DNA from: an uncultured Acetatifactor sp.
GTDB taxonomy: Bacteria; Bacillota; Clostridia; Lachnospirales; Lachnospiraceae
Length of the DNA: 64,000 bases
Assembly: GCA_947588705.1 (NCBI GenBank)
Contig: CANPYT010000002.1
Span: forward strand, 1 to 64,000
Reading direction: 5' to 3'
Part shown: one piece after another, positions 1 to 28,836 of the stretch
Position numbering within the stretch: the first letter of the stretch is position 1
Layout of the letters: each line of letters begins with the position of its first letter
The notes under the pieces: model-generated
What the model was told of the DNA's origin: nothing
The model's database searches: none
The model's input: the letters and a program-made list of their open reading frames with translations, nothing else
Program-made: the position numbers and the translations under genes

Positions 1-117
1 CTGCAAATCATTTATTGTTTCAAGACGTACCGTTCGGTCTGCATCACTCTCTTCAAGACGTCTCTGCAAATCATTTATTGTTTCAAGACGTGCCGCCCTG
101 TCAAATTCACTCTCCTC
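1..117 (-). repeat. 63-bp tandem repeat inside the methyltransferase gene
   Basis: Bases 1-27 and 64-90 are identical, and the rest of each 63-bp unit is similar at the protein level. Each unit encodes 21 residues, so copy-number change keeps the frame and lengthens or shortens a predicted coiled coil by three heptads. The array continues beyond the left window edge, so the number of copies is unknown. Confidence 0.75.
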
Positions 118-1062
118 CATTTTATTTTGGATACTTTTAATAGTCATTAATCTTTTCTGATTGTCAACATGCTCCCTTAATAAATTTTCACCTAACTCCT
201 TGTTTCTTTTATAAAAAAGAATAAGACTTTTAACAATCCTTCCATATTTTACATAATTTAGCGAATTAATTACCTCTTCACTAGACTTCACAACAATCTG
301 TTTTTTTGAAGCAAATAAGAATATATCATAATCATCGCCAAAACATGCCGGTTCCTCATAAAAATATTTAAAACCATATTTTTCTAACAACAACCTTATC
401 GACTTTGCACTATAAAGATAAATATGCTCTTTCTCCTTTAGTTGCTCAGCGAATCTGGGAGTTTTTTCTAACATTTCATCATATGTGAGATTATCTCTGT
501 ATCGTGGAGTTTGAATACAAAAAACCCCACCATCCCTTAACCGCTTCACAACTTCTGAAACAAACAACTCAGGTTCCATAATATGCTCTATCACGTCAAA
601 TGCTAGTATTGCATCATAAGTTTCCTCTGAAACCTGCAGTTCCCCGCATTTCACATTAATTCCCAATTCTTTCGATATATAACAACATATTTCCGGACTC
701 ATCTCAAAAGCCGTCTGCTGAAAACCGATCGTTTTCATTAAATACGCCAATTGCCCTAACCCACACCCCACTTCAGCTACACTGGAAGATAACGGCACAT
801 ATTTAAGTATCTTTTCCAGCCAATAGGGAACTCTATCATAGAAATATCTATCTATGACCCCCCCAAGGGAATCCTGACCAGTTGCCTTTTCCATTTTATC
901 TTCCCAATAATTTTTTCCATACAAGTCATTTTCTTCGTCTCGTACAGAATATATGGTTTTGTTAAAATTCAATTTGGAAACTAGTGTACCACATTTTTGA
1001 CACTTATAATAATACTGGGAATATTCAATAAGTTCTGTATTACCACACCAACACGTTTTCAT
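1..1062 (-). CDS. SAM-dependent methyltransferase with C-terminal coiled-coil repeats (partial, runs off window)
   Basis: The reading frame is open from an ATG at 1062 to the window edge (354 codons seen, no stop). A ribosome site AGAAGGGAG lies just upstream. The first ~25 residues hold CWC and CQKC cysteine pairs, a small zinc-ribbon-like knuckle. A class I methyltransferase domain follows, with motif I VAEVGCGLGQLAYL and a following acidic/DVIEH segment typical of the Methyltransf_23/UbiG-like group. After ~residue 270 the chain becomes charged and helical. It ends in repeats of 21 residues (RLEESDADRTVRLETINDLQ is one copy; 21 residues is three heptads), so a coiled coil is likely. It lies directly downstream of the Wzm/Wzt-type transporter genes. 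I infer that it modifies the end of an ABC-exported glycan, as WbdD does in E. coli O9a. The kinase domain of WbdD is not visible here. Confidence 0.8.
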   Translation of the reverse strand, partial: MKTCWCGNTELIEYSQYYYKCQKCGTLVSKLNFNKTIYSVRDEENDLYGKNYWEDKMEKATGQDSLGGVIDRYFYDRVPYWLEKILKYVPLSSSVAEVGCGLGQLAYLMKTIGFQQTAFEMSPEICCYISKELGINVKCGELQVSEETYDAILAFDVIEHIMEPELFVSEVVKRLRDGGVFCIQTPRYRDNLTYDEMLEKTPRFAEQLKEKEHIYLYSAKSIRLLLEKYGFKYFYEEPACFGDDYDIFLFASKKQIVVKSSEEVINSLNYVKYGRIVKSLILFYKRNKELGENLLREHVDNQKRLMTIKSIQNKMEESEFDRAARLETINDLQRRLEESDADRTVRLETINDLQ

Positions 1063-1114
1063 GATCTATACTCCCTTCTATAACAAATTATAGGTAGTAT
1101 ACCCTATAACTTAT

Positions 1115-2506
1115 TTAGAAATTCCTTAACTGTATTTCTCCCGGCAAATCACAACAGCCATGAAAAGATATCTTCATAGGTGCACCTATTTTCCTTGGAA
1201 GAACTGCAAATGAAGCTATTCCCGGCCTAATGCATAGCTTCTCAAAAGTGTTGTTTACTTCCTCTTGACTTCTCATATACCTCTTTTCATAGTCACCATG
1301 TTGAATTGACGCCAACCCTAATTCCAACGAGTACTCTCCAACCGCAACATTAAGTTCCACCCTCTGCAAAAAATACAGTACCTTCCCAGCCGGTACATTT
1401 TCCGGCAACTGCATATCGTATTGTAAATTATCCTTTCCGTGTACAATAATATTTTTTTGGTCTGTCAAAACACAACTTACAATCGGACAATTAATTGGTT
1501 CTTTTACCAGCACTTCCATATACACATATAGGCTTTCGCCCTGTTCAAAAGAATACCTGGGATAACCGTTCTTGTCAAACAATCCAACTCTTAAAAAAGT
1601 TGCTTTACCATTTCCAATTTCCTTAGAGACATTCAAATCAATAAACGATTCTTCCCTTAAGATCCATCCCTCAAACTGGATATCACTATTATTTTCAACA
1701 GTATTATCACCTTCCTCATCTTTTACATCTTCTTTATGATCTCCCACCTGCAAATCATGCAAACGATCTTCCTGTTCCAAAAAATAATACTGCTTAACAC
1801 ATTCCTTACTATCTCCTTGCACCATTACTTGTCCATGATGCAAGAGCAACGCCCTGTCGCAAAACTGTTCCACCTCGTTCATGCCATGGCTAACCAATAT
1901 TATCGTCTTTCCCTCTGCCTTTAACTGATTCAACTTTGCATAACATTTCTGTCTAAAAAATATATCTCCAACAGCCAGCGCCTCATCAATCAACAATATA
2001 TCCGCATCTACATTTATTGCAACGGCGAATGCCAATCTGACAAACATTCCGCTGGAATAGGTTTTAACAGGCTGATTAATAAAATCTCCTATATCTGCAA
2101 AGTCTATTATCTCTGCAATTTTTGTTTCGATGTCGTTTTTATTCACCCCTAAAATTGCAGCGTTCATATATATATTCTCATAACCAGTGCTTTCCGGATC
2201 AAATCCACTTCCCAACTCAAGCAACGCCGCAACGCGTCCGTTAACCTCAACTTCTCCGGAAGATACCTTTAGAATTCCGGCTAATATTTGTAATAATGTA
2301 CTTTTACCACTGCCATTTTTACCAATGATTCCATATGTTTCGCCTTTTTTTATAGTAAAACTTACATTATCTAGAGCCACAAAGTCCCTTCCAGAATTCA
2401 TATGAAACATATGATAAAGAAATCTTTTCCCCGGCGAATCAAAAATTTTATATATCTTTGTTAAATTCGCAGCTCGAACCGCAATCTTATTCGCATCCTG
2501 GCACAT
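1115..2506 (-). CDS. Wzt/TagH-type ABC transporter ATPase with C-terminal glycan-binding-like domain
   Basis: 463 residues. The N-terminal ~240 residues are a polysaccharide-export ATPase: Walker A GKNGSGKST, signature YSSGMFVRLAFA, Walker B DILLIDEALAVGD, and the switch histidine in ILVSHG. A charged linker (about 250-275) leads to a ~180-residue beta-rich domain like the C-terminal carbohydrate-binding domain of Wzt proteins. In the Wzt family that domain recognises the modified non-reducing end of a finished glycan and licenses export. The permease gene is immediately upstream and the methyltransferase follows, as expected for terminal-modification-dependent export. The start has a GAGGAG site 9 bases away. 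The C-terminal domain assignment rests on position, length and general sequence character, not on a search. Confidence 0.85.
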   Translation of the reverse strand: MCQDANKIAVRAANLTKIYKIFDSPGKRFLYHMFHMNSGRDFVALDNVSFTIKKGETYGIIGKNGSGKSTLLQILAGILKVSSGEVEVNGRVAALLELGSGFDPESTGYENIYMNAAILGVNKNDIETKIAEIIDFADIGDFINQPVKTYSSGMFVRLAFAVAINVDADILLIDEALAVGDIFFRQKCYAKLNQLKAEGKTIILVSHGMNEVEQFCDRALLLHHGQVMVQGDSKECVKQYYFLEQEDRLHDLQVGDHKEDVKDEEGDNTVENNSDIQFEGWILREESFIDLNVSKEIGNGKATFLRVGLFDKNGYPRYSFEQGESLYVYMEVLVKEPINCPIVSCVLTDQKNIIVHGKDNLQYDMQLPENVPAGKVLYFLQRVELNVAVGEYSLELGLASIQHGDYEKRYMRSQEEVNNTFEKLCIRPGIASFAVLPRKIGAPMKISFHGCCDLPGEIQLRNF

Positions 2507-2547
2507 CCATAAACTCTCCTCTGTTCTCTATTAAATAATACTGTCCA

Positions 2548-3336
2548 TTACAAAATATCCGCAAATCCTTCTTTTGATCGTTCAAACACTAACCAGCCAA
2601 GTATCAAAAATACAACCGAATATATCATACTAAACAAGAAATAATACATATCAAGACTATTGCCATACAACACCACATTTCTGAAATTCTCAATGATATA
2701 CGTCATCGGATTGCAACTGCATATAAACCTAAAACTTTCCGGAACCACCTCCAAAGAGAAAAATACCGGACTAATATACATTAGTACAGTTACGATAACA
2801 GAGATTGCATTTGCAACATCCTTTAAATAAACAGAAACCGCAGCGATAAAAAGACCTATCCCTATACAGAGTATGATTAATGGCAAAAAAGCGGGAAAAA
2901 TCAGAAATATCGTAACAGGAATTTTTTTATAAAGGATCAATTCTGCAATCATCAAAACTATATAACTAATAACAGCATTAAATAAAGCAGACATTGTAAT
3001 CATCACAGGAAGCAATTCCAAAGGAAATACTACTTTCTTAACATAATTTACATGAGAAGGGATTAAAGAAGTTGCCCTGTTCATTACTTCGCTGATCATA
3101 TTGAAGGAAGATAAACCGCAAAACAAAACCATGGCAAACCAGTACTTATCTGAGACCTCTCCCCCCCATTTAGCCTGAAATATCTCACTAAAGAAATATG
3201 TATACACAACTAGCATAAATATAGGAACTAATACTGACCATAAGAGTCCCAATATGGAACCCTTATACTTTTGTTCAATATCTTTTTTTATCAGACGACC
3301 TAGCAAATAGCCATTTTCTTTTATTATCCTAAACAT
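2548..3336 (-). CDS. Wzm/TagG-type polysaccharide ABC transporter permease
   Basis: 262 residues with about six hydrophobic segments and the N-terminal amphipathic stretch (KKDIEQKYKGSILGLLWSVL) typical of the ABC2 polysaccharide/teichoic-acid exporter permeases TagG, Wzm and RfbA. The usual family length is 250-280 residues, so it looks complete. It should form the membrane channel with the ATPase encoded 41 bases downstream and move a lipid-linked glycan across the membrane. It is AT-rich like its neighbours. Confidence 0.9.
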   Translation of the reverse strand: MFRIIKENGYLLGRLIKKDIEQKYKGSILGLLWSVLVPIFMLVVYTYFFSEIFQAKWGGEVSDKYWFAMVLFCGLSSFNMISEVMNRATSLIPSHVNYVKKVVFPLELLPVMITMSALFNAVISYIVLMIAELILYKKIPVTIFLIFPAFLPLIILCIGIGLFIAAVSVYLKDVANAISVIVTVLMYISPVFFSLEVVPESFRFICSCNPMTYIIENFRNVVLYGNSLDMYYFLFSMIYSVVFLILGWLVFERSKEGFADIL

Positions 3337-3383
3337 TACTCAATATAACCTCCAGCCGCAGCATCTAAAGTCGATCATTCTTT

Positions 3384-4217
3384 TTAACCCTCTTCATTAC
3401 AAACAATTGTTTTTGCTATAATTCTTTTCTTAAAAGGATATAACAAAATCATTAATATCCTTTTAGGGATCAAATCAAGCCACCTATTCTGATAGTCCTC
3501 TAATACCTTTGTTACCACCCAGTGCATAGGAACCCTATGATAGTACTTAAGTAAAATAATCATTGCCTCCCTTAAATGAATTCTTTTTAACCGAGAGGTC
3601 TTTGTATCTTCATATAAGCGTGTAGCTCCAATATATTCTCTCAAAAAACCAAAATCATAGAATTGAGCTAACCTTATCCAATATTCATAATCCAAGCACG
3701 TTTTTAATTTTTCATTAAGTAAACCGGTTCTCTTATAAGCCGTCTGACTGAATAATACGCTTGGTTGACTCAAAAAGCACCTCTTCCCTAAATTGGCATA
3801 AGAGAAAGATTCTACAGGATATTCCCCTATCATATCACCGTTCTTATCAATAAAATGGGATAAGCCGTAACACACCTCATAGTTTCCTGTGATGGCAAAC
3901 TCCAGCAACTTTGCAACAGCCCTTTCATCTTCATAGACATCATCGGAATTCAGCCAGAGGTAAAAATCACAATCCGATAGTTTTTGGATTCCTTTATTAA
4001 TTGCATCCGCCTGACCCTTGTCAGGTTCTGAACACCAGAATTTTAATTCCTTCTCGTATTTTTTTATAATGGATACGGAATTGTCCTCCGAGCCACCGTC
4101 TATCACCGCAATGTCCATCTCTACGTTTCTACGATTGGCAATTGCGCTTAATAATGCTTTCTCAAGATATTGTCCCTGATTATAGCTTGGTATGACCACG
4201 CCAACCCTTTTTCCCAT
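3384..4217 (-). CDS. Glycosyltransferase family 2
   Basis: 277 residues. The GT-A fold is shown by VGVVIPSYNQGQYL at the start, IDGGSEDNS, and the metal-binding region WLNSDDVYED near residue 110. A substrate-side QPSVLF...YWIRLAQ block is like WcaA-type transferases. It adds one sugar to the glycan made by this locus; donor and acceptor cannot be read from sequence. It precedes the transporter permease by 47 bases and is probably co-transcribed. Its start follows directly after the remnant at 4230-4423. Confidence 0.85.
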   Translation of the reverse strand: MGKRVGVVIPSYNQGQYLEKALLSAIANRRNVEMDIAVIDGGSEDNSVSIIKKYEKELKFWCSEPDKGQADAINKGIQKLSDCDFYLWLNSDDVYEDERAVAKLLEFAITGNYEVCYGLSHFIDKNGDMIGEYPVESFSYANLGKRCFLSQPSVLFSQTAYKRTGLLNEKLKTCLDYEYWIRLAQFYDFGFLREYIGATRLYEDTKTSRLKRIHLREAMIILLKYYHRVPMHWVVTKVLEDYQNRWLDLIPKRILMILLYPFKKRIIAKTIVCNEEG

Positions 4218-4229
4218 AGCAAGTCTCCA

Positions 4230-4423
4230 TTATTTAACCCATTGCGCCCATTCCATCCGATATTCCTCAGTGGACATATTTTCATTCTCTCTAAACAGCC
4301 GCTGCATCGCAACAACATCCTTCATTCCGGACTCCACAATAATCTGTTTGATTACTATATAATTCTTCGATAAGATAATTTTCCACAAAACCCACCGCTC
4401 CTATTATTAATAACTTTTTTCAT
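4230..4423 (-). pseudogene. Remnant of a short-chain (SDR) sugar-nucleotide enzyme gene
   Basis: A good ribosome site (GGGATGGGA) and an ATG at 4423 are kept, but the next frame is broken. Skipping one base in the A6 run after the start gives KKLLIIGAVGFVENYLIEEL, which looks like the first beta-alpha unit of a Rossmann-fold epimerase or dehydratase. A further frame change gives a plausible C-terminal stretch ending RMEWAQWVK and a stop just before the GT2 start. The middle ~250 residues expected for an SDR are absent. I read it as an internally deleted, frameshifted gene. The C-terminal part could come from a different protein. Confidence 0.5.
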
Positions 4424-4438
4424 ATTCCCATCCCTATT

Positions 4439-5599
4439 TTAGAAGTTATCGAATTGACTTAGAATATTTTTATAAAATTCTGCGCTTTCTTCCCAAGTAA
4501 CAAAACGTAATTTCTTCATTTCCGCCTTCAAATTACAATACAATTCCTCATCTTCATATTTTCTGATCAAATTACACAACATTTCTACGTTATCCTGCTC
4601 AAACCATACACAGCATCCTTCCGCTACCTCCTTTAACACTTCAACGTCAGCAGCAATCACAGGAGTACCCTTTGCAATTGCTTCAATGATCGGCAAGCCA
4701 AATCCTTCCATATAACTGCAAAACGCCAGAAATCTTGCATGTTGATATAGATAAATTATACTAACATCATCCAAACCGCTAAAATGAAAAATACGTTTTC
4801 CGTAATCCCGGTGATGAAACAAACGATTTTGAAATTCCTCCATCTTCCATCCCATATAACCTGCAAAAATAATATTATATCCCATCTCCCGCAGCCCCTT
4901 ATCATATGCTTCCAACAAGAGCTTATGATTTTTACGCGGTTCTATTGTGCCCACCATAAGAATATAAGGAAATCCCGATGCTATCTTAAACAACTTATCC
5001 GGCACTTCAGCATCCGAAATCGTTCTCTGTGTTCCAAAATCGGCCCCAAGAGGAACTACATAACATGGGGGCATAACGACATTTGTTCTTTCCCCTAATT
5101 TCTTCAAATCATTTTTAGTTGCCTGCGCATTAACGATAATAGCATCTGCATATTGAATATGGGCACCGATATAATCCATAAAGTTATAAACTCCGCGCTC
5201 CAAACAAAATTGCGGGTAATTAATGGAAATAATATCGTATATATGAGCAATAATTCTTGTTCCTTGATTTTTAAGAACCGGAAGTAAATAGCTTCTTTTC
5301 ACACGACTCATCCATGACGCATCCAAGTCAAAAAAACAAGTTCCTTTTCCAATCTCTTTTAATGGAACTTCTCTCCTCGTGATCATCATTTCCTTTATTC
5401 CCAAATGCTTGCAATAATATTCGCAAAACTTTTTATTATCTATTTGATAATAACAATTCTTTTTTGCATTATAATGTATTAATACTATTTCGAAGCGTAC
5501 ATCCTGTATTAATCGCACTGCTACTTCTCTTGTCACACGCTGAATTCCCGTAACAAAAGTTGCCAGGGTTAATACCGTAACGTCAATGTACACTTTCAT
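4439..5599 (-). CDS. Glycosyltransferase family 4 (GT-B)
   Basis: 386 residues from the ATG at 5599, which overlaps the previous stop as ATGA and has AGGAAGG upstream. The longer frame to 5665 only re-reads the neighbouring gene. The C-terminal half carries the donor-binding signature GTIEPRKNHKLLLEAY and the EGFGLPIIEAIAKGTPVIA motif with the EX7E glutamates. It is a retaining transferase using a nucleotide sugar, probably cytosolic or loosely membrane-bound. The N-terminal YIDVTVL...TGIQRVTREV matches the start of mannosyltransferase-type GT4 enzymes. It is coupled to the DUF4214-like gene. Confidence 0.88.
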   Translation of the reverse strand: MKVYIDVTVLTLATFVTGIQRVTREVAVRLIQDVRFEIVLIHYNAKKNCYYQIDNKKFCEYYCKHLGIKEMMITRREVPLKEIGKGTCFFDLDASWMSRVKRSYLLPVLKNQGTRIIAHIYDIISINYPQFCLERGVYNFMDYIGAHIQYADAIIVNAQATKNDLKKLGERTNVVMPPCYVVPLGADFGTQRTISDAEVPDKLFKIASGFPYILMVGTIEPRKNHKLLLEAYDKGLREMGYNIIFAGYMGWKMEEFQNRLFHHRDYGKRIFHFSGLDDVSIIYLYQHARFLAFCSYMEGFGLPIIEAIAKGTPVIAADVEVLKEVAEGCCVWFEQDNVEMLCNLIRKYEDEELYCNLKAEMKKLRFVTWEESAEFYKNILSQFDNF

Positions 5600-6063
5600 A
5601 AAAATACCTTCCTGATCAGCTTTTGAATCGGTTGGGGAAGCTTCTTGCCAAACTCCCTCAAACAAGATTTGTCTGTTAACCCGTACAAAATGCCCATAAA
5701 ATGATATTTTAATCCTATCTTTTGATTAAAATATGGATTATTGATCAGTTTGATCTGATTGATCGCAACTACACTGGACCCAGCAATATTTTTAAGCACT
5801 TCTTTCTGAAACTGCTCCTTAGGTAACATTTCTTTTCCTTCCCAGAAAGCTATCTCTTTTTTCTCTGGAAGACGTCTGTAAGCTACAACATAAATAGCTT
5901 CATAAAAATGATGATTATCGAGCTCAAGGAAACGGGTTATATCAATACTCTGAGGATGCATACCTACATCGCATAGGAAGGTGCTTTTCTGGTATCCAAA
6001 ATGCTCTCCTTTTTCTTCCATGTTTCCAGCCACAATATCGTAAATTGAATTATAAACTTCCAT
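5596..6063 (-). CDS. DUF4214-like protein
   Basis: 155 residues from ATG 6063, with TTTGAGGAT upstream; the longer frame to 6171 enters the insertion remnant. Residues ~50-100 (HFYEAIYVVAYRRLPEKKE, EIAFWEG, EQFQKEVLKNI) resemble the DUF4214 repeat, a small helical module found in glycosyltransferase gene clusters and in some secreted proteins. No signal peptide is seen. It is translationally coupled (ATGA) to the following GT4, so it may be a partner or former domain of that enzyme. Function is not established. The promoter region was probably replaced by the insertion at about 6130. Confidence 0.55.
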   Translation of the reverse strand: MEVYNSIYDIVAGNMEEKGEHFGYQKSTFLCDVGMHPQSIDITRFLELDNHHFYEAIYVVAYRRLPEKKEIAFWEGKEMLPKEQFQKEVLKNIAGSSVVAINQIKLINNPYFNQKIGLKYHFMGILYGLTDKSCLREFGKKLPQPIQKLIRKVFL

Positions 6064-6129
6064 TTTATCCTCAAACCGTTTTTTATAGTATATACTAATC
6101 TTATAGAGATTGCAAGAACCGATTTCCTG

Positions 6130-6860
6130 TTGCGATATGAAATGCATTTTAATAATACAGAATGGCGTCAATCACATCCGGCTCAAAGCCGGCTAAACAA
6201 ATGGCATGAAAATGACTGCCCGTTTTGCTATAAGCATTGTGAGAGCTATGCCAACAAGAATCCCCAACCCCGTACCTGGAAGGAACTGGACTGGGGCAGC
6301 ACACTGGTGGAGGTGTGATACGATACTCACCGCGTTGAGTATCCTGTCCACGGTGTTCTGGTTGCCGATGTGCCATTGTCAACCATGACACGAACACTGT
6401 TGCGTGGGCGGCCTAGGAACACAGATTCCATGTCATCCAATGGCCGATGGAGATCCTTGACAAAGTCCGCCGCGAGGTCTGGCGTGAAGCCTACAACGAA
6501 GCAGAGCGTCTCGTAAAGAAAAATCCCAGAAAGATGGAACACCCCAAGGAGGACGATCCGACAATGGCAATGCTGCGCATCGTAAAAGCCAAAGCGGAAG
6601 AGATAAAGAACTCCGTGTATGCCCATGGCAAAACCCCGGAACATCTGACCGAGAAGCAACGAGTCAAGATAGCCATGATCACCGAAAACAATAACTGTCT
6701 CTATCGTGCCTGCCAGATAAAGGAAATGCTCAGGCTTCTGTTGAAGCTTAAGAATATTAATGAAGCTAAGTCGGAACTGAAACGCTGGTTATGGTGGGCA
6801 AGCCACAGTCGCATTATGGCCTTTCAAAAGCACTATTAAAAAATCAAGCGACATAAATGC
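6130..6860 (+). pseudogene. ISL3-family transposase remnant
   Basis: In one plus-strand frame (6193-6390) there is CPFCYKHCESY, TWKELDWGSTLVEV, a TGA stop at 6319, then YDTHRVEYPVHGVLVADVPL. This is the zinc-binding N-terminal part of ISL3 transposases. From about 6432 another frame continues with ILDKVRREVWREAY, VKKNPR and the helical region to RIMAFQKHY near 6839, then KIKRHK after a stop. Relative to a full ISL3 transposase (~400-430 residues) the start, most of the DDE core and the end are missing, with at least one stop and one frameshift. The element is dead. It separates the AT-rich glycan genes from the G+C-richer ones. Confidence 0.75.
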
Positions 6861-6911: not shown

Positions 6912-8021
6912 TTAATAACAAGCTATCGCTTCCCGCAATACCTCCACATACTGCCCCACAATCTTCTCCAGCTCATATTTCTCAAACTTCTCTTCCTTGG
7001 GCGGAAGAGTCCTGGCATACGCTATTTTTTCCACCCATTTTGCCACATCATAGGGGTCATCCACATAGACCGCCTTCCCCTCCGTAATTTCCTGAAGGCA
7101 CGTCTCTCTGGTCATCACTACTCTCCGTCCCTTGCGCATGGCTTCAATGGGAGGCATCCCGAACCCTTCAAAAATGCTGGGAAACAGAAAAAGCTGGCAA
7201 TTTTCATAAAGGCAGTCTCTCTCCGCATTGGTCACAAATCCCGTCTGTATCACACGATCCGAAATGTCAAGCCCGGCTAACATCTGCTCAAACTCCTGGC
7301 TGTTGCCTCCCACGCCGCTTAACACCAGCTTTGCAGGATCCCCCATATCCTTCAATCGAGCCATCACCTTTAATACAGTAGTCAGATTCTTATGCGGCAT
7401 CAGTGCGCTGACGCAATAAAAATAGGTTCCGGGATCTATCGCATATTTTTCCTTTAATTCCTCCGCCGTCATCGCAGATGCCTCTGTGACGATAGGATCA
7501 TACACAGTGCGCAGCTTCTTTTTTGCAAAGGGATATTGTCTGGTCAGATCCTCCCTGCAATAGTCGGAAATAGTAATGACGAACCTGGAACTTTTACAGG
7601 TATAATACCAGCTCCGCCGGAGGAAACATCTTTTCAACCAGGAAAAATACTGCGGAAAATGCAACGCCTGCAGGTCGTGAATGACGCTCACATAAGGAAT
7701 CGTTCCACATGATCTTGGTTTGCTGTACACGGGGATCAGCATGACATCCACCCGTTCCTTAGCCGCATACCGATCCAGATGTCGGTTTTCCCATAAAATA
7801 CGTTTATACGGTACCGAACACTTTACGGAACAGACCCTCATCTCCATATTGACATTCTGCCCATACTTGCAAAAACTGTCTGCGTTATCTTCCGTCACAA
7901 ATAATAGGTAATGGCTTTCTTTGTCATATTTGGAAAATCCATCCATCAGGTTTCGAATAAACGACTCCGTACCTCCGCAAAGTCCCGGCCTGACCCATAA
8001 CAAATCAATTCCAACACGCAT
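6912..8021 (-). CDS. Glycosyltransferase family 4 (GT-B)
   Basis: 369 residues. MRVGIDLLWVRPGLCGGTESF at the start is the usual glycine-rich acceptor-side loop. YVSALMPHKN-type donor-domain entry (YFYCVSALMPHKNLTTVLKV) and FPSIFEGFGMPPIEAMRKG with the EX7E glutamates follow. It is a complete retaining glycosyltransferase. It is the last intact gene of the G+C-rich part of the glycan operon and lies 31 bases after the GT2 gene. Confidence 0.9.
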   Translation of the reverse strand: MRVGIDLLWVRPGLCGGTESFIRNLMDGFSKYDKESHYLLFVTEDNADSFCKYGQNVNMEMRVCSVKCSVPYKRILWENRHLDRYAAKERVDVMLIPVYSKPRSCGTIPYVSVIHDLQALHFPQYFSWLKRCFLRRSWYYTCKSSRFVITISDYCREDLTRQYPFAKKKLRTVYDPIVTEASAMTAEELKEKYAIDPGTYFYCVSALMPHKNLTTVLKVMARLKDMGDPAKLVLSGVGGNSQEFEQMLAGLDISDRVIQTGFVTNAERDCLYENCQLFLFPSIFEGFGMPPIEAMRKGRRVVMTRETCLQEITEGKAVYVDDPYDVAKWVEKIAYARTLPPKEEKFEKYELEKIVGQYVEVLREAIACY

Positions 8022-8844: not shown

Positions 8845-10578
8845 TCATCCCTTTTCCGCCGCAGGCCCTTCGCCTTCCGTATAGCGGATAGAGTCGGCCA
8901 TACTTACCTTTTGATAGTCAAGTCCGTCATATTTTGAAAGCCTCTGGTCATAACAGTTATTTCCAAACGCCTTTGCCGCCAGCTTTTTTATCTTCCCCGG
9001 AATATGAAGCGCTATCCACACTGCGGGAGACAACAGTCTGGTGACATGTACCGGCCGATGTGCCTGCTCCCCGATCTGTTTTACCATCTCAGCGGTTTTC
9101 GTGTATTCCGCGTTTTGCGGAAAGTATACCCCGCCTTCGCCGCAAAGCACCAGCTGGCTCACAAGTTCACACAGGTTGTCTATATACAGCATCGACCGCT
9201 TATTGTCGTAATCCGGAAATAGCGGAAATTGCTTTGCTACCTTAGCCAGCGTCGGATAATTGCCTTTTGAGTTCTTTCCGTAGACCATAGGCGCCCGAAG
9301 GACCGCGACCCGGAAGCCGCTATCGCTCATTTGCCGTACTCCCTTATCCGCCCGCCATTTAGAATCACCGTAAAAGTCAGCCGGCTCCGGTACCGTATGG
9401 GCGTCAATAAACTCTTTCCCCCCATACACGATCATGCTGGACATAAGCAGAAACTGCCCTACCCCTTCCTTCTTTGCCTTCTCCGCCGTCTCGATTGCAA
9501 GATCCGTGTTGACCTCATAGTACTTTGCCTTCTCTTCTTCCGTCACCTTCCCCACGTCCGCATGGGCGATCCCGGCTACATGAAAGACGGCGTCATAAGG
9601 CGAAAAGTCAAACTTGCGCCATGCCTCCTGCCTCATGTCGAGCGTATCGACGCGAAGCGTCGGGTAATACTTCTCACAATACGCTTTAAAAGATTCCCCG
9701 ATATAGGAACCGGCCCCCGTGACCAGCACCCTTTTCTGAGCCGTCCTGTCCACATAAAAATGTTTCTGAAACCCGTAATCCACTGCTTCCAGCGTTCCTG
9801 TTCCTCCCTCGACGACACCGTCATGTCTGAGTACGCTGCCTATCGTCAGGAAAAACATCTTTACATCAAAACAAAATGCCTTCCATCCTCCCTGTTTCAG
9901 GACCTTAACATAATCGCCGTCTAATTTTGCCTTGTCGGAGATCAAAAGCTCGTCTCTGCCCTGGATCTGCGCAAGGCCGGTAAGGCCGGGAAGCACATCG
10001 TTTGCCCCGTATTTTTCACGTTCCGCCACCAGGTCGTCCTGATTCCAAAGCGCCGGGCGCGGCCCTATGATGCTCATTCTTCCGCGAAAAATATCCCATA
10101 TCTGAGGCAGTTCATCCAGGCTCGTCCGCCGCAGTATCTTTCCTACCCTGGTAATATACTGTTCAGGATCAGCCAGCTGGTGCGTCGGGACATCATGGGG
10201 CGTGGACATACGCATGGATCTGAATTTATGGATCAATATATACTGTTTTCCCTTCCCCACCCGCTTCTGTGTAAAAAACACAGGCCCGGGATCGTCTATC
10301 CACACTGCCAGAGATATCAAAAGGAACACCGGGAACAGGATCAGCAGGCCGCAGAAAGCCAGCAGCTTATCTGTCGCCGGCTTGACGCTGTCCATGTAGA
10401 TCCTTTTGCTTTCAGAGGAACATTTCCCTTTCCCGCCCTCAAAATACATGCCGAGATAGGGATTGTCGTTATCTATATCGCTTCCTTCCGTGCGCGTTTT
10501 GGCGATCCGCTGCAGGATCAGGAATGCGCCTGTAAGGAAAGCACCTGTTTTCAAGACATTTCGCGATCTTTTTTTCAA
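8845..10578 (-). CDS. PglC-like phosphoglycosyltransferase fused to NAD-dependent epimerase/dehydratase
   Basis: 577 residues, two enzymes in one chain. Residues ~60-270 are a bacterial sugar transferase: a re-entrant hydrophobic helix (LLAFCGLLILFPVFLLIS), HKFRSMRMS, DELPQIWDIFRGRMS and IIGPRPAL. This type moves a sugar-phosphate from UDP-sugar to polyprenyl phosphate, the first step of glycan assembly. Residues ~283-570 are an extended SDR: RVLVTGAGSYIGES for NAD binding, the catalytic serine region LLMSSMIVYGG and YGDSK (YxxxK). The epimerase probably makes or adjusts the donor of the fused transferase. The TTG start overlaps the previous stop (TTGA), with GGGAG upstream. Confidence 0.88.
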   Translation of the reverse strand: MKKRSRNVLKTGAFLTGAFLILQRIAKTRTEGSDIDNDNPYLGMYFEGGKGKCSSESKRIYMDSVKPATDKLLAFCGLLILFPVFLLISLAVWIDDPGPVFFTQKRVGKGKQYILIHKFRSMRMSTPHDVPTHQLADPEQYITRVGKILRRTSLDELPQIWDIFRGRMSIIGPRPALWNQDDLVAEREKYGANDVLPGLTGLAQIQGRDELLISDKAKLDGDYVKVLKQGGWKAFCFDVKMFFLTIGSVLRHDGVVEGGTGTLEAVDYGFQKHFYVDRTAQKRVLVTGAGSYIGESFKAYCEKYYPTLRVDTLDMRQEAWRKFDFSPYDAVFHVAGIAHADVGKVTEEEKAKYYEVNTDLAIETAEKAKKEGVGQFLLMSSMIVYGGKEFIDAHTVPEPADFYGDSKWRADKGVRQMSDSGFRVAVLRAPMVYGKNSKGNYPTLAKVAKQFPLFPDYDNKRSMLYIDNLCELVSQLVLCGEGGVYFPQNAEYTKTAEMVKQIGEQAHRPVHVTRLLSPAVWIALHIPGKIKKLAAKAFGNNCYDQRLSKYDGLDYQKVSMADSIRYTEGEGPAAEKG

Positions 10579-21066: not shown

Positions 21067-22200
21067 TCAGTCAAAGATCCAGTTCAGATAGGGCAGAAGC
21101 CTGACATCCACCGCGTACATCCCCTTGAGCAGCAGCGCAAAATACACGCCGAAGGCGCCTATGACTCCCGCACAGCCCAGCCTGCGCAGCCATTTTTTTT
21201 CTATCTGCGCCAGCATCCGGGGCAAAAGGAAGATCTGAGATATGATCATATAATATCCCACTCTTGACACCTCCGGAATAAAGGAACCGCAGCAGTAAAC
21301 CACGAGCCCGAACAAGTTCAGGAAAAAATAGAACCGGTTCATCAGGTCGTCTGCAAGCGCTTTCCGGCAAAATATAAGTCCAAGAAGCATCACACAGACA
21401 CATTTCAAGATATTGGCATAGGACAGCTGGCCATTATCAAAGGCGGAATCCCTGTAGTAGGGATAAAAATAGAATATGATCTCCCGGTAGATCCCCTGCC
21501 CGAGCACCAGGCTGGCAAGGAATCCGCCGCCCAGGACATAATGCCAGGTTTTCAGTCTCCCTGCCGCCAGGAACCGGGCTGCCAGGTACACCGGGATCAC
21601 CAGCAGGACCGACTTGTGGAATTGGGCTCCCGCCAGCACCCATGCCGCAAACTTGCCATACTCAGCCCGCAGCACATATTTCATAGAAAAGAGCGCTATG
21701 GCCAAAGCCAGATAATACCGCACGGAATTCAGGCTGTTGAAATAATAGCCTCCCGTCAGCAGAAGATACAGTGAAAAAGCGTAATAGCTCCCCTGGTCAT
21801 GCAGCGCCTTTACAAAGAAAAAAACGGTCACGACAGAAAAGAAACCAAATACCGGCAGATACCTGTCATATCCAAAAAACATCTGGAGCCACTTTACGAT
21901 CAGGTTAAATCCTGTCTCAGAGGCCACATGGCGGCTCTGGGCGATCAGATTGAAATTATCCCGATAGACCCAGTAATCGTTTCCCACCGCGATCCGGCAG
22001 GCGCTGACCCCCGTCAGGAGACAGTATATGGCAAATCCCGCGACACGGTTCCTTGCCAGCTGCCTGTCGGCTCCCGGCCGCTCTCCCCTTGCCCTTCCCC
22101 CTCTGATATACAGGGGCACGTAGGCTTTATTGTCCACACACATCCCCAGAAGTACCGTCACCAGGGTCAGTGTGATGTAGATCCACGCGCTTCTTTCCAT
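21067..22200 (-). CDS. EpsG-family polysaccharide polymerase
   Basis: 377 residues with about ten hydrophobic segments and the EpsG-type sequence around VGNDYWVYRDNFNLIA and ETGFNLIVKWLQ in the N-terminal third, plus SVRYYLALAIALFSMKY. EpsG proteins are membrane polymerases that join lipid-linked repeat units of exopolysaccharide in Firmicutes. The gene lies among glycosyltransferases between a GT2 and a GT4, as in eps-type operons. Confidence 0.85.
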   Translation of the reverse strand: MERSAWIYITLTLVTVLLGMCVDNKAYVPLYIRGGRARGERPGADRQLARNRVAGFAIYCLLTGVSACRIAVGNDYWVYRDNFNLIAQSRHVASETGFNLIVKWLQMFFGYDRYLPVFGFFSVVTVFFFVKALHDQGSYYAFSLYLLLTGGYYFNSLNSVRYYLALAIALFSMKYVLRAEYGKFAAWVLAGAQFHKSVLLVIPVYLAARFLAAGRLKTWHYVLGGGFLASLVLGQGIYREIIFYFYPYYRDSAFDNGQLSYANILKCVCVMLLGLIFCRKALADDLMNRFYFFLNLFGLVVYCCGSFIPEVSRVGYYMIISQIFLLPRMLAQIEKKWLRRLGCAGVIGAFGVYFALLLKGMYAVDVRLLPYLNWIFD

Positions 22201-24114: not shown

Positions 24115-25572
24115 CTACTCTGTCTTTCCTCTCTTTTCCGCCAGCTCCTTCTGATGACACTCTTCCCGCAGGGCCGTGATTTGCTGGGCCTCCACGCCCT
24201 CGGTGCTGTCCGGCCAGAATAAGACCTTGATCGTCAGGATCATCAGCTTTATATCAAGCCACAGACTATAGTTTTCAATATAAGTCAGATCCAGTTTCAG
24301 CTTGTCATAGGGAGAAGTATTATACTTCCCATACACCTGGGCAAACCCGGCCAGTCCCGCGCGTACCTTCATACGAAAGGCAAATTCCGGCATGACCTCC
24401 AGGTACTGCTCTATGATCTCCGGGCGCTCCGGCCTCGGTCCTATAAAAGACATGTCTCCCCGCAGGATATTAAACAACTGCGGCAGCTCGTCCAGCCTGC
24501 ATTTCCTGATAAATCGTCCGACCGGGGTGATCCTGTCGTCATTCTTTTTCGCCAGCCTTGCCACCCCGTCCTTTTCCGCATCTGTCCGCATACTCCTGAA
24601 CTTTAGGATGGAAAACGGACGCTGGTCTATGGTACAGCGCACCTGCCGATACAGTATGGGGCCGCCATCGTACAGCTTTATGGCCAGAGCCGTCAGCAGC
24701 ATAAAAGGCGATGTGGCCACCAGCAGGACCAATGCGCACACAATGTCGATCGTGCGCTTGAAAAAGCGTTCCTCCACAGAAAGGCTGTATTCCCTCGTCA
24801 GCAGCATGGGGCTGTCAAACACATGGATCTCCTCGGCCCCCGTCAATATAACATCTGTTATCTTTGGAATAAGGTACACCCTGTAAGACTTGCCGTAACA
24901 AAATTTCAGAAGGGGGCTCCTCTCCTCCACGGAAATATCCCCAATGACTACCGCGTTGCACCGGCCTGTCTGAAACGATTCCTCAATAGCCCTGCAGACA
25001 GCCGCATACCCCTCCCCGACATGGATCTTTCCGGTTATCACATATTTATCGCTGCGGCTTGCAAACTTGCCGCAGAGCTCTTCAACAGACTTATCGCCGT
25101 GAATCAGGAGCAGCTTGCGCGGCGGGAAAATAGACCGGTAGATCTTGTTTGCCAGATTCATATAGAGCAGCACGATGACGGCCTGCTCCGCCATCATCAT
25201 AAGAAATACATTGGGCACAAAAGCCTGGTGGGCCATGATGGACAGCTCACAGTAAATGATGATATTCGCCAGCAGCGTGGAGAGCACCTGCGAAAACACG
25301 ATCTCCGCATTCTTCTGGTACCCCAGCCGCACACTGCCGTAAGTCGCCGACAAAAAGATCAGTACAATGGCGTAGAACGCGACTTCCGCCATATTTCCCG
25401 CATACCAGAAGTTCCGCAGGCCCTCCACCACGCTATAGCGGAAATCCACCAGCCAGTGAAAAGCAAAATCAGCGATCTCCAGCGCAAGGCAGACAGCGAT
25501 CAGCCCGAGATTGATCAGTCTCTTATAGATCTCCAGTTTTCTTATTTTTTTTTCATTGGTACTGGCTCTCAA
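24115..25572 (-). CDS. Polyprenyl-phosphate sugar phosphotransferase (EPS initiating enzyme)
   Basis: 485 residues. Four N-terminal membrane segments and a nucleotide-binding-like middle domain precede the C-terminal catalytic domain: a hydrophobic helix (RTIDIVCALVLLVATSPF), LKFRSMRTDAEKD, DELPQLFNILRGDMSFIG and PRPERPEI. This is the WbaP/CpsE type that starts exopolysaccharide by loading a sugar-phosphate on undecaprenyl phosphate. The start is TTG with GGAGG 8 bases upstream. A possible -10 (TATACT on the minus strand, 25630-25635) and a small hairpin (25600-25619) precede it, so it may have its own promoter as well. Confidence 0.92.
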   Translation of the reverse strand: MRASTNEKKIRKLEIYKRLINLGLIAVCLALEIADFAFHWLVDFRYSVVEGLRNFWYAGNMAEVAFYAIVLIFLSATYGSVRLGYQKNAEIVFSQVLSTLLANIIIYCELSIMAHQAFVPNVFLMMMAEQAVIVLLYMNLANKIYRSIFPPRKLLLIHGDKSVEELCGKFASRSDKYVITGKIHVGEGYAAVCRAIEESFQTGRCNAVVIGDISVEERSPLLKFCYGKSYRVYLIPKITDVILTGAEEIHVFDSPMLLTREYSLSVEERFFKRTIDIVCALVLLVATSPFMLLTALAIKLYDGGPILYRQVRCTIDQRPFSILKFRSMRTDAEKDGVARLAKKNDDRITPVGRFIRKCRLDELPQLFNILRGDMSFIGPRPERPEIIEQYLEVMPEFAFRMKVRAGLAGFAQVYGKYNTSPYDKLKLDLTYIENYSLWLDIKLMILTIKVLFWPDSTEGVEAQQITALREECHQKELAEKRGKTE

Positions 25573-28458: not shown

Positions 28459-28836
28459 TCACATGGCTTTGATGTCAAGACGTATTTTATCCGCTATCCG
28501 CGCTATATACTCGCTGTTCGTTGGCCTTGTCCTTCCTGATTCCGCAGAGTAACCGAACAATTTCTCGAATGTCTCCGCATTTCCCCTGTTCCAAGACACT
28601 TCGATCGCGTTGCGTATAGCGCGCTCCACTTTCTGATCCGTGGTCCGGAAACGTTTGGCGATGGTGGGATACAAGAGCTTTGTCACGCTGCTCACCACCT
28701 CCATATCCCTTCCGGACAGCAAAATAGCTTCTCTGAGATAATGATACCCTTTTAAATGTGCCGGAACCCCTATATCCAGCATAATGTCAGTGATATATCT
28801 CTCCAATTCGCAATCTTTCACAAACCTAAGTTCCAC
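28459..28836 (-). CDS. Stand-alone Spo0A C-terminal (effector) domain protein
   Basis: 125 residues. Nearly the whole chain matches the Spo0A DNA-binding domain: ITDIMLDIGVPAHLKGYHYL, YPTIAKRFRTTDQKVERAIR, EVSWNRGNAETFEKLFGY and RPTNSEYIARIADKIRL. True Spo0A is about 260 residues with an N-terminal phospho-receiver; here that domain is missing and no space exists for it upstream. It should bind 0A-box-like DNA without phosphorylation control, possibly competing with Spo0A. The start is GTG with AGGAAGGGG upstream. A 7-of-9 match to the 0A box lies at 28859-28867. It is next to the glycan operon, which it may regulate. Confidence 0.85.
   Translation of the reverse strand: MELRFVKDCELERYITDIMLDIGVPAHLKGYHYLREAILLSGRDMEVVSSVTKLLYPTIAKRFRTTDQKVERAIRNAIEVSWNRGNAETFEKLFGYSAESGRTRPTNSEYIARIADKIRLDIKAM

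Follow-up and report, generated by a model that had tools for sequence, protein, structure and literature searches.

Whether a Gram-positive bacterium might end, measure and export a surface glycan in the manner described for WbdD of Escherichia coli is a question raised by one end of a contig from an uncultured Acetatifactor sp. of the Lachnospiraceae (GenBank assembly GCA_947588705.1). The stretch analyzed, here called the window, comprises positions 1 to 64,000 of contig CANPYT010000002.1 (C2 of the 147-contig genome), and its base 1 is the first base of that contig. Genes for an ATP-binding cassette (ABC) exporter of the Wzm/Wzt type stand there directly ahead of a gene for a methyltransferase that runs into 21-residue repeats, all on the minus strand. 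With some reserve, we favor an ABC-transporter-dependent surface-glycan pathway, its chain ended by O-methylation, as the function of this locus. The parts of this reading differ in strength: the exporter almost certainly carries a glycan-binding-type domain; the methyltransferase, by analogy with characterized terminators, quite likely caps the exported chain; and on the same analogy the chances that its predicted coiled coil sets chain length are about even.

RESULTS

Exporter and methyltransferase genes

Along the minus strand, the genes are ordered GT4 glycosyltransferase, GT2 glycosyltransferase, ABC-2 permease, ATPase, and methyltransferase. An earlier reading of the window from its letters and open reading frames (the sequence-only reading) had proposed a Wzm-type permease and a Wzt-type ATPase with a long C-terminal domain, and profile searches confirmed both. 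The permease (2548..3336; 262 amino acids, aa) matches PF01061 (ABC2_membrane) at 83.7 bits; its top NCBIfam model, that of the galactan Wzm/RfbD, scores 43.3 bits, well under the cut-off of 380. The ATPase (1115..2506; 463 aa) joins a nucleotide-binding domain (PF00005, ABC_tran, 85.2 bits) to a C-terminal domain, residues 295 to 407 of which (1286..1624) match the carbohydrate-binding-type family Wzt_C (PF14524) at 68.4 bits (cut-off, 30.4), over profile positions 3 to 114 of 143.

The methyltransferase gene (1..1062) follows after a gap of 52 bp and encodes a protein of which 354 aa are visible before the contig end cuts it; the frame is open at its 3′ end, with no stop before window base 1. 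Residues 81 to 233 (364..822) match a class I S-adenosylmethionine methyltransferase domain (PF13489, 69.8 bits, E = 3e-19). Ahead of this domain, residues 4 to 25 (988..1053) read as a CxC...CxxC cysteine cluster, possibly a zinc ribbon, and behind it a coiled coil predicted by a custom heptad score (residues 307 to 354; 1..144) runs past the contig end. The sequence-only reading had proposed sequencing past position 1 to reveal the full length of the repeats. Because window base 1 is the contig's first base, the assembly holds no sequence past it, and searches of the host genome for the missing C terminus with the protein, its DNA, the repeats of a related locus and a second repeat-bearing protein (L009 and L106, below) found just the window's own copy, one search also giving four short matches, all at E > 1.

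Between the end of the methyltransferase model (residue 259) and the start of the coil (residue 307) lie 47 residues, which therefore leave no room for a kinase domain of the O9a/O3 type ahead of the coil, though one might lie past the contig end. A single methyltransferase without a kinase, as earlier proposed, thus holds for this part of the protein. Its novelty does not, as in E. coli O8 a methyltransferase-only WbdD suffices without a kinase (PMC3482155; this and the other papers are cited for excerpts of their text).

The 21-residue repeats

That the methyltransferase protein continues into 21-residue repeats is borne out. Its tail, residues 300 to 354, matches itself at a lag of 21 in 20 of 34 places; across 5,000 shuffles the lag-21 match averaged 2.4 and peaked at 9, none reaching 20, and with any lag from 5 to 30 allowed, 0 of 2,000 shuffles reached the observed value. 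The repeats are beyond chance. In the window, the lag-21 self-match delimits about 1.9 clear units and a further, degenerate one, all on the minus strand: unit 1, of 63 nucleotides (nt), at 55..117; the first 18 residues of unit 2, cut by the contig end, at 1..54; and the degenerate unit ahead of the array (residues 295 to 315) at 118..180. Tandem Repeats Finder (TRF; score 30) called no DNA repeat in this region of the window.

A scan by pattern across 84,980 species genomes, suited to close relatives only, returned three loci. Two are distant: L010 (25% identity over 141 residues), used among the seeds for the methyltransferase model described below, and L011 (37% over 51), which was unused. 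The third, L009, lies in a metagenome-assembled genome labelled Gastranaerophilales, presumably by misbinning, and has the same gene order as the window, with protein identities of 81% for the methyltransferase, 88% for Wzt and 94% for Wzm (247 of 262 residues). All four cysteines of the N-terminal cluster are kept. Its array comprises six full 63-nt units and part of a seventh before the contig ends; neighboring units are identical at 42 to 62 of 63 nt, the lag-21 self-match is 111 of 133, and TRF reports a period of 63 with 5.9 copies and 90% matches. The arrangement of an N-terminal methyltransferase followed by a predicted coil is present, and a long coil is seen in L009 alone, where a single helix made of the 143 residues between residue 311 and the contig end would be at least 21 nm long, near the length of the WbdD ruler, about 200 Å or roughly 20 nm (PMC5082667). 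The unit counts of the window and L009 are not comparable, because both arrays are cut. Repeat arrays are a common cause of assembly breaks, and these repeats likely caused both.

Twenty-one residues make three heptads. The coil that the sequence-only reading proposed together with the periodicity is less firm than the periodicity itself: on our heptad score, a rough custom measure and not a published coil predictor, the maxima were 0.59 in the window and 0.64 in L009, and among 60 shuffled control proteins the 95th percentile was 0.49, with one maximum of 0.66 above both. A search of 390 other genomes of the class for the repeat gave no match (E ≤ 1e-12), and the methyltransferase was not found in plasmids at E ≤ 1e-10.

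DNA identity between the window and L009 is 99.4 to 99.8% over window positions 4001 to 6000, 85 to 91% over 501 to 4000 and 75% over 1 to 500. The sharp drop near position 4000, to about 86%, likely reflects recombination among close strains at their glycan loci.

The same 21-residue repeat also occurs in the bin of L009 at L106 (contig C141, 3741-5042, minus strand), at the C-terminal end of a SPASM-domain protein whose gene is open at its 5′ end and is followed by GT4, GT2 and GT4 genes; the array has 3.4 copies with 94% matches. L106 was not taken as the continuation of the cut methyltransferase protein because its repeat sits on this different protein, and a match on contig C67 of that bin (E = 0.13, in a 708-aa frame) was set aside as being at chance level.

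The Wzt C-terminal domain

When the C-terminal domain of the window's Wzt was compared with the PDB by phmmer, four chains were matched at E ≤ 1, all of Aquifex Wzt (8dky, 7k2t, 8dku and 6o14, E = 1.0e-4 to 1.7e-4). The structures 6O14 and 7K2T are of Aquifex aeolicus Wzt, whose domain binds 3-O-methyl-mannose and not mannose, reading a 3-O-methyl cap (PMC9445017). The window's domain belongs to the same family and is a predicted reader of a cap, not necessarily one of the same chemistry. The earlier proposal that this domain recognizes the cap is upheld in part: the domain family agrees with it, whereas the residues that contact the cap in the Aquifex pocket are not kept.

Wzt loci in the family

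Of 299 genomes of the family, 266 have a Wzt match at E ≤ 1e-40, many over the ATPase core alone. We surveyed 62 loci, namely, the window, L009, the second Wzt locus of the same genome (L100), that of its genus-mate, and loci from 58 further genomes of the family; the family loci came from the top of the Wzt match list and are hence biased to full-length Wzt. By a custom methyltransferase model, 61 of the 62 loci have a methyltransferase no more than four genes downstream of Wzt (the exception is L045), and in 56 it is the next gene. As a control for position, the same model applied within 3.5 kb found a methyltransferase downstream in 60 of 62 loci and upstream in none. The count of 61 is partly circular, because 8 of the model's 11 seed proteins came from the surveyed loci. 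A Pfam methyltransferase family was matched at E ≤ 0.001 by at least 49 of 59 fetched family candidates, 49 being the largest count for a single family and the union across families possibly higher; with the window and L009, at least 51 of 62 loci are Pfam backed, and up to 10 are called by the custom model alone. Fourteen candidates were scanned singly, and 10 had a Pfam methyltransferase (L073 only below the curated cut-off); none was found in L060, L063, L069 or L094. A second set comprised 20 loci from 19 genomes, drawn from lower matches mostly covering the ATPase core. A methyltransferase adjoins Wzt in 13 of its 15 loci with a typical Wzt C-terminal domain and in none of the 5 loci whose domain is divergent; one of these five is cut by a contig end. 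The layout of Wzt followed by a methyltransferase is common in the family.

The family-typical loci, L100 among them, resemble the window in having a Wzt with the C-terminal domain and a methyltransferase close downstream, with a coil on it or on a neighbor in many. The methyltransferase is fused to a coil in 15 of the 62 loci, methyltransferase, coil and glycosyltransferase share one protein in 6, and a coil-glycosyltransferase protein occurs in 33. The window differs from them in sequence: compared with 59 others, it has a mean identity of 0.50 in the ATPase core (0.72 among those 59), 0.20 in the Wzt C-terminal domain (0.49) and 0.19 in the methyltransferase (0.39). The window copy, with its divergent methyltransferase and Wzt C-terminal domain, is thus a sequence outlier; also particular to this locus are its low-GC segment and its near-exact repeats.

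L100 (8406-10538, minus strand) and 11 other members of alignment A4 encode methyltransferase proteins of 683 to 774 aa with a second conserved domain (D...N...DYEW motifs), some ending in a predicted coil. A WbdD-like kinase, suspected there from motifs picked by eye, was not confirmed: a profile search of the PDB at E ≤ 1 gave methyltransferases only, and no Pfam kinase was named in the two of these proteins that were scanned whole.

The low-GC segment and its host

The export and cap genes lie in a segment (1..6100) with a GC content of 36%, against 54% for positions 8001 to 64000; these 6.1 kb were therefore probably acquired. Upstream of wzm, the segment carries the GT2 glycosyltransferase (3384..4217, minus strand; PF00535, 67.2 bits) and the GT4 glycosyltransferase (4439..5665, minus strand; PF00534, 82.7 bits). 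A 191-aa open reading frame at 5596-6171 (minus strand) has no Pfam or NCBIfam match and is kept in L009.

In the host genome, which is 91.7% complete, Spo0A_C is matched twice and LpxC not at all, so that a Firmicutes-type host of the spore-forming kind, without lipopolysaccharide (LPS), is likely, in agreement with the Gram-positive setting earlier assumed. Among 14 control genomes, Spo0A_C matched Bacillus subtilis alone and LpxC matched four others. The second Spo0A_C match lies in the window at 28483-28794 (minus strand), in a 126-aa open frame.

A 577-aa protein at 8845-10578 (minus strand) fuses a Bac_transf sugar-phosphate transferase to an epimerase/RmlD-like domain. Outside the low-GC segment, at 17 to 25 kb and with normal GC content, is a second polysaccharide cluster, in which an EpsG-family protein (21067-22200, minus strand) stands amid glycosyltransferases and a second Bac_transf protein is encoded at 24115-25572. 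EpsG-family proteins are often polymerases, and this cluster may follow the Wzx/Wzy route, although no search for Wzx was made.

DISCUSSION

Precedents for the locus

The sequence-only reading knew of no well-described example of this design in the Firmicutes, a view that is not supported. In Clostridium difficile Ox247, an S-layer glycan exported by an ABC transporter bears a phosphate cap (PMC6254364), and in Geobacillus stearothermophilus NRS 2004/3a, a Gram-positive organism like the present host, wzm and wzt are followed by a gene for a protein with an N-terminal methyltransferase, WsaE, the three genes overlapping. WsaE joins a 2-O-methyltransferase to two glycosyltransferase domains; its pathway places a methyl cap at the non-reducing end, and the methylated chain is the predicted ligand of its Wzt (PMC2943079). 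Compared by description only, WsaE differs from the window's protein, whose C terminus lies past the contig end, in having two glycosyltransferase domains. A count of the term coiled-coil in that review (PMC2943079) gave 0, whereas the window has a predicted repeat coil.

WbdD of E. coli O8 and Klebsiella O5 (methyl only) and of E. coli O9a and Klebsiella O3 (phosphate and methyl) has, like the window's protein, an N-terminal methyltransferase followed by a coil, and in these systems the exporter's Wzt reads the cap (PMC3482155, PMC11231755). In the E. coli O9 serogroup and Klebsiella pneumoniae O12, the coil parts the terminator from the polymerase, setting chain length (PMC11231755, PMC5082667), and an account that includes K. 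pneumoniae O4/O7 states this termination strategy to be widespread (PMC11231755). A methyltransferase-coil protein is also described for E. coli O101/O162 (PMC13168486), where, unlike in the window, it serves an LPS O-antigen; this comparison, too, is by description only. The window differs from the WbdD systems in having no visible kinase and a host with Spo0A_C and no LpxC match, and its relative L009 in having near-exact 63-nt tandem repeats. Because of the precedents in WsaE, Ox247, O8, O4/O7 and O101/O162, the locus is not new in kind and is a further example of an already described design of cap, measurement and export.

What may be new is the near-exact, in-frame three-heptad array, together with the recurrence of its repeat module on the SPASM-domain protein of L106. 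No tandem-repeat ruler of a glycan terminator appeared in the titles and opening lines of abstracts among the literature matches listed. A survey by Mann, Kimber and Whitfield (2019, Glycobiology), reportedly of terminators and of ABC transporters bearing carbohydrate-binding modules, to judge by its title, may already list such loci.

Proposed mechanism and alternatives

In the pathway we propose, a lipid carrier in the cytosol would bear the chain as it is built. By extension from WbdD, WbbB and WsaE, the repeat-built coiled coil would hold the methyltransferase away from the polymerizing glycosyltransferases, and the methyltransferase would methylate the non-reducing end once the growing chain reached it. 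The Wzt C-terminal domain would then select the capped chain and Wzm and Wzt would export it, as the function of their families implies.

Several findings weigh against this model. Among 16 PDB matches of the methyltransferase at E ≤ 1, no chain is named WbdD, and the two proteins presumably share just the general class I methyltransferase fold family. Close relatives of the methyltransferase were not found in 298 other genomes of the family (E ≤ 1e-15) or in 397 other genomes of the phylum (E ≤ 1e-12), and the C terminus lies beyond the contig end in both the window and L009. A two-sequence profile of the Wzt C-terminal domain matched no PDB chain at E ≤ 10. In our mapping, which takes the chain index as the paper's residue number plus one, the Aquifex pocket residues Leu300, Thr346, Ala348, His350 and Asn313 align with Val, Glu, Gly, Ala and Asp of the window, and the alignment ends short of Trp362; this mismatch bears on the identity of the cap and not on the domain family, and other caps may need other residues. 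Distances between Wzt C-terminal domains correlate with those between methyltransferases (rank r = 0.41, 0 of 999 permutations as good), but after correction for the ATPase core the correlation falls to 0.13 (49 of 999), and to 0.07 (126 of 999) when the window and L009 are left out; with little remaining beyond the core, we dropped mirror-tree co-evolution as support. Finally, the window's Wzt C-terminal domain is of the divergent kind, and the five divergent loci of the second set lacked an adjoining methyltransferase.

Three other explanations were weighed. The coil might be a scaffold recruiting glycosyltransferases, or a membrane tether, with the methyltransferase still capping or decorating the glycan. 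The excess of coil-glycosyltransferase proteins over methyltransferase-coil proteins in the surveyed loci (33 against 15 of 62), the repeat on the SPASM-domain protein of L106 and the finding that WsaE methylates independently of chain length in vitro (PMC2943079) all fit that idea; we consider it rather unlikely, as the coil does set length in the characterized O9 and O12 terminators described above. Less probable still is that the methyltransferase acts on an in-chain sugar or a nucleotide-sugar precursor and that the Wzt domain reads something else. The PF13489 fold is generic, one of the weak matches in the PDB is a sugar 3-C-methyltransferase (5t64, E = 0.35), and the altered pocket and scant co-variation point the same way. 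Yet the methyltransferase follows Wzt in the loci examined, with none within 3.5 kb upstream, and a nucleotide-sugar enzyme would have no obvious need of a 20-nm coil. That these genes are an acquired fragment, broken or silent, from which nothing is made seems very improbable. A low-GC segment at a contig end, the recombination edge near position 4000 and a continuation missing from the host assembly would suit a fragment, but the visible frames are open in both the window and L009 at the protein identities given above, and arrays of this sort commonly break assemblies.

Implications

Capping, measurement and export of a methylated glycan, the reading we retain, would have a further consequence if the coil were an evolvable ruler. 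An in-frame 63-nt array of three heptads could gain or lose whole units, so that surface-glycan length would change in fixed steps between strains while cap and exporter stayed matched. We offer this idea tentatively and think it unlikely as it stands; were it true, one coil could serve two heads, through the repeat module on the second enzyme, at L106. Natural differences in copy number of the near-exact array could serve to probe the ruler idea, and should the array prove to differ from strain to strain, the length of the surface glycan would be a changeable trait encoded by repeats. More broadly, the survey suggests that the machinery of cap, measurement and export is common equipment in one gut-type family and not a specialty of Gram-negative bacteria.

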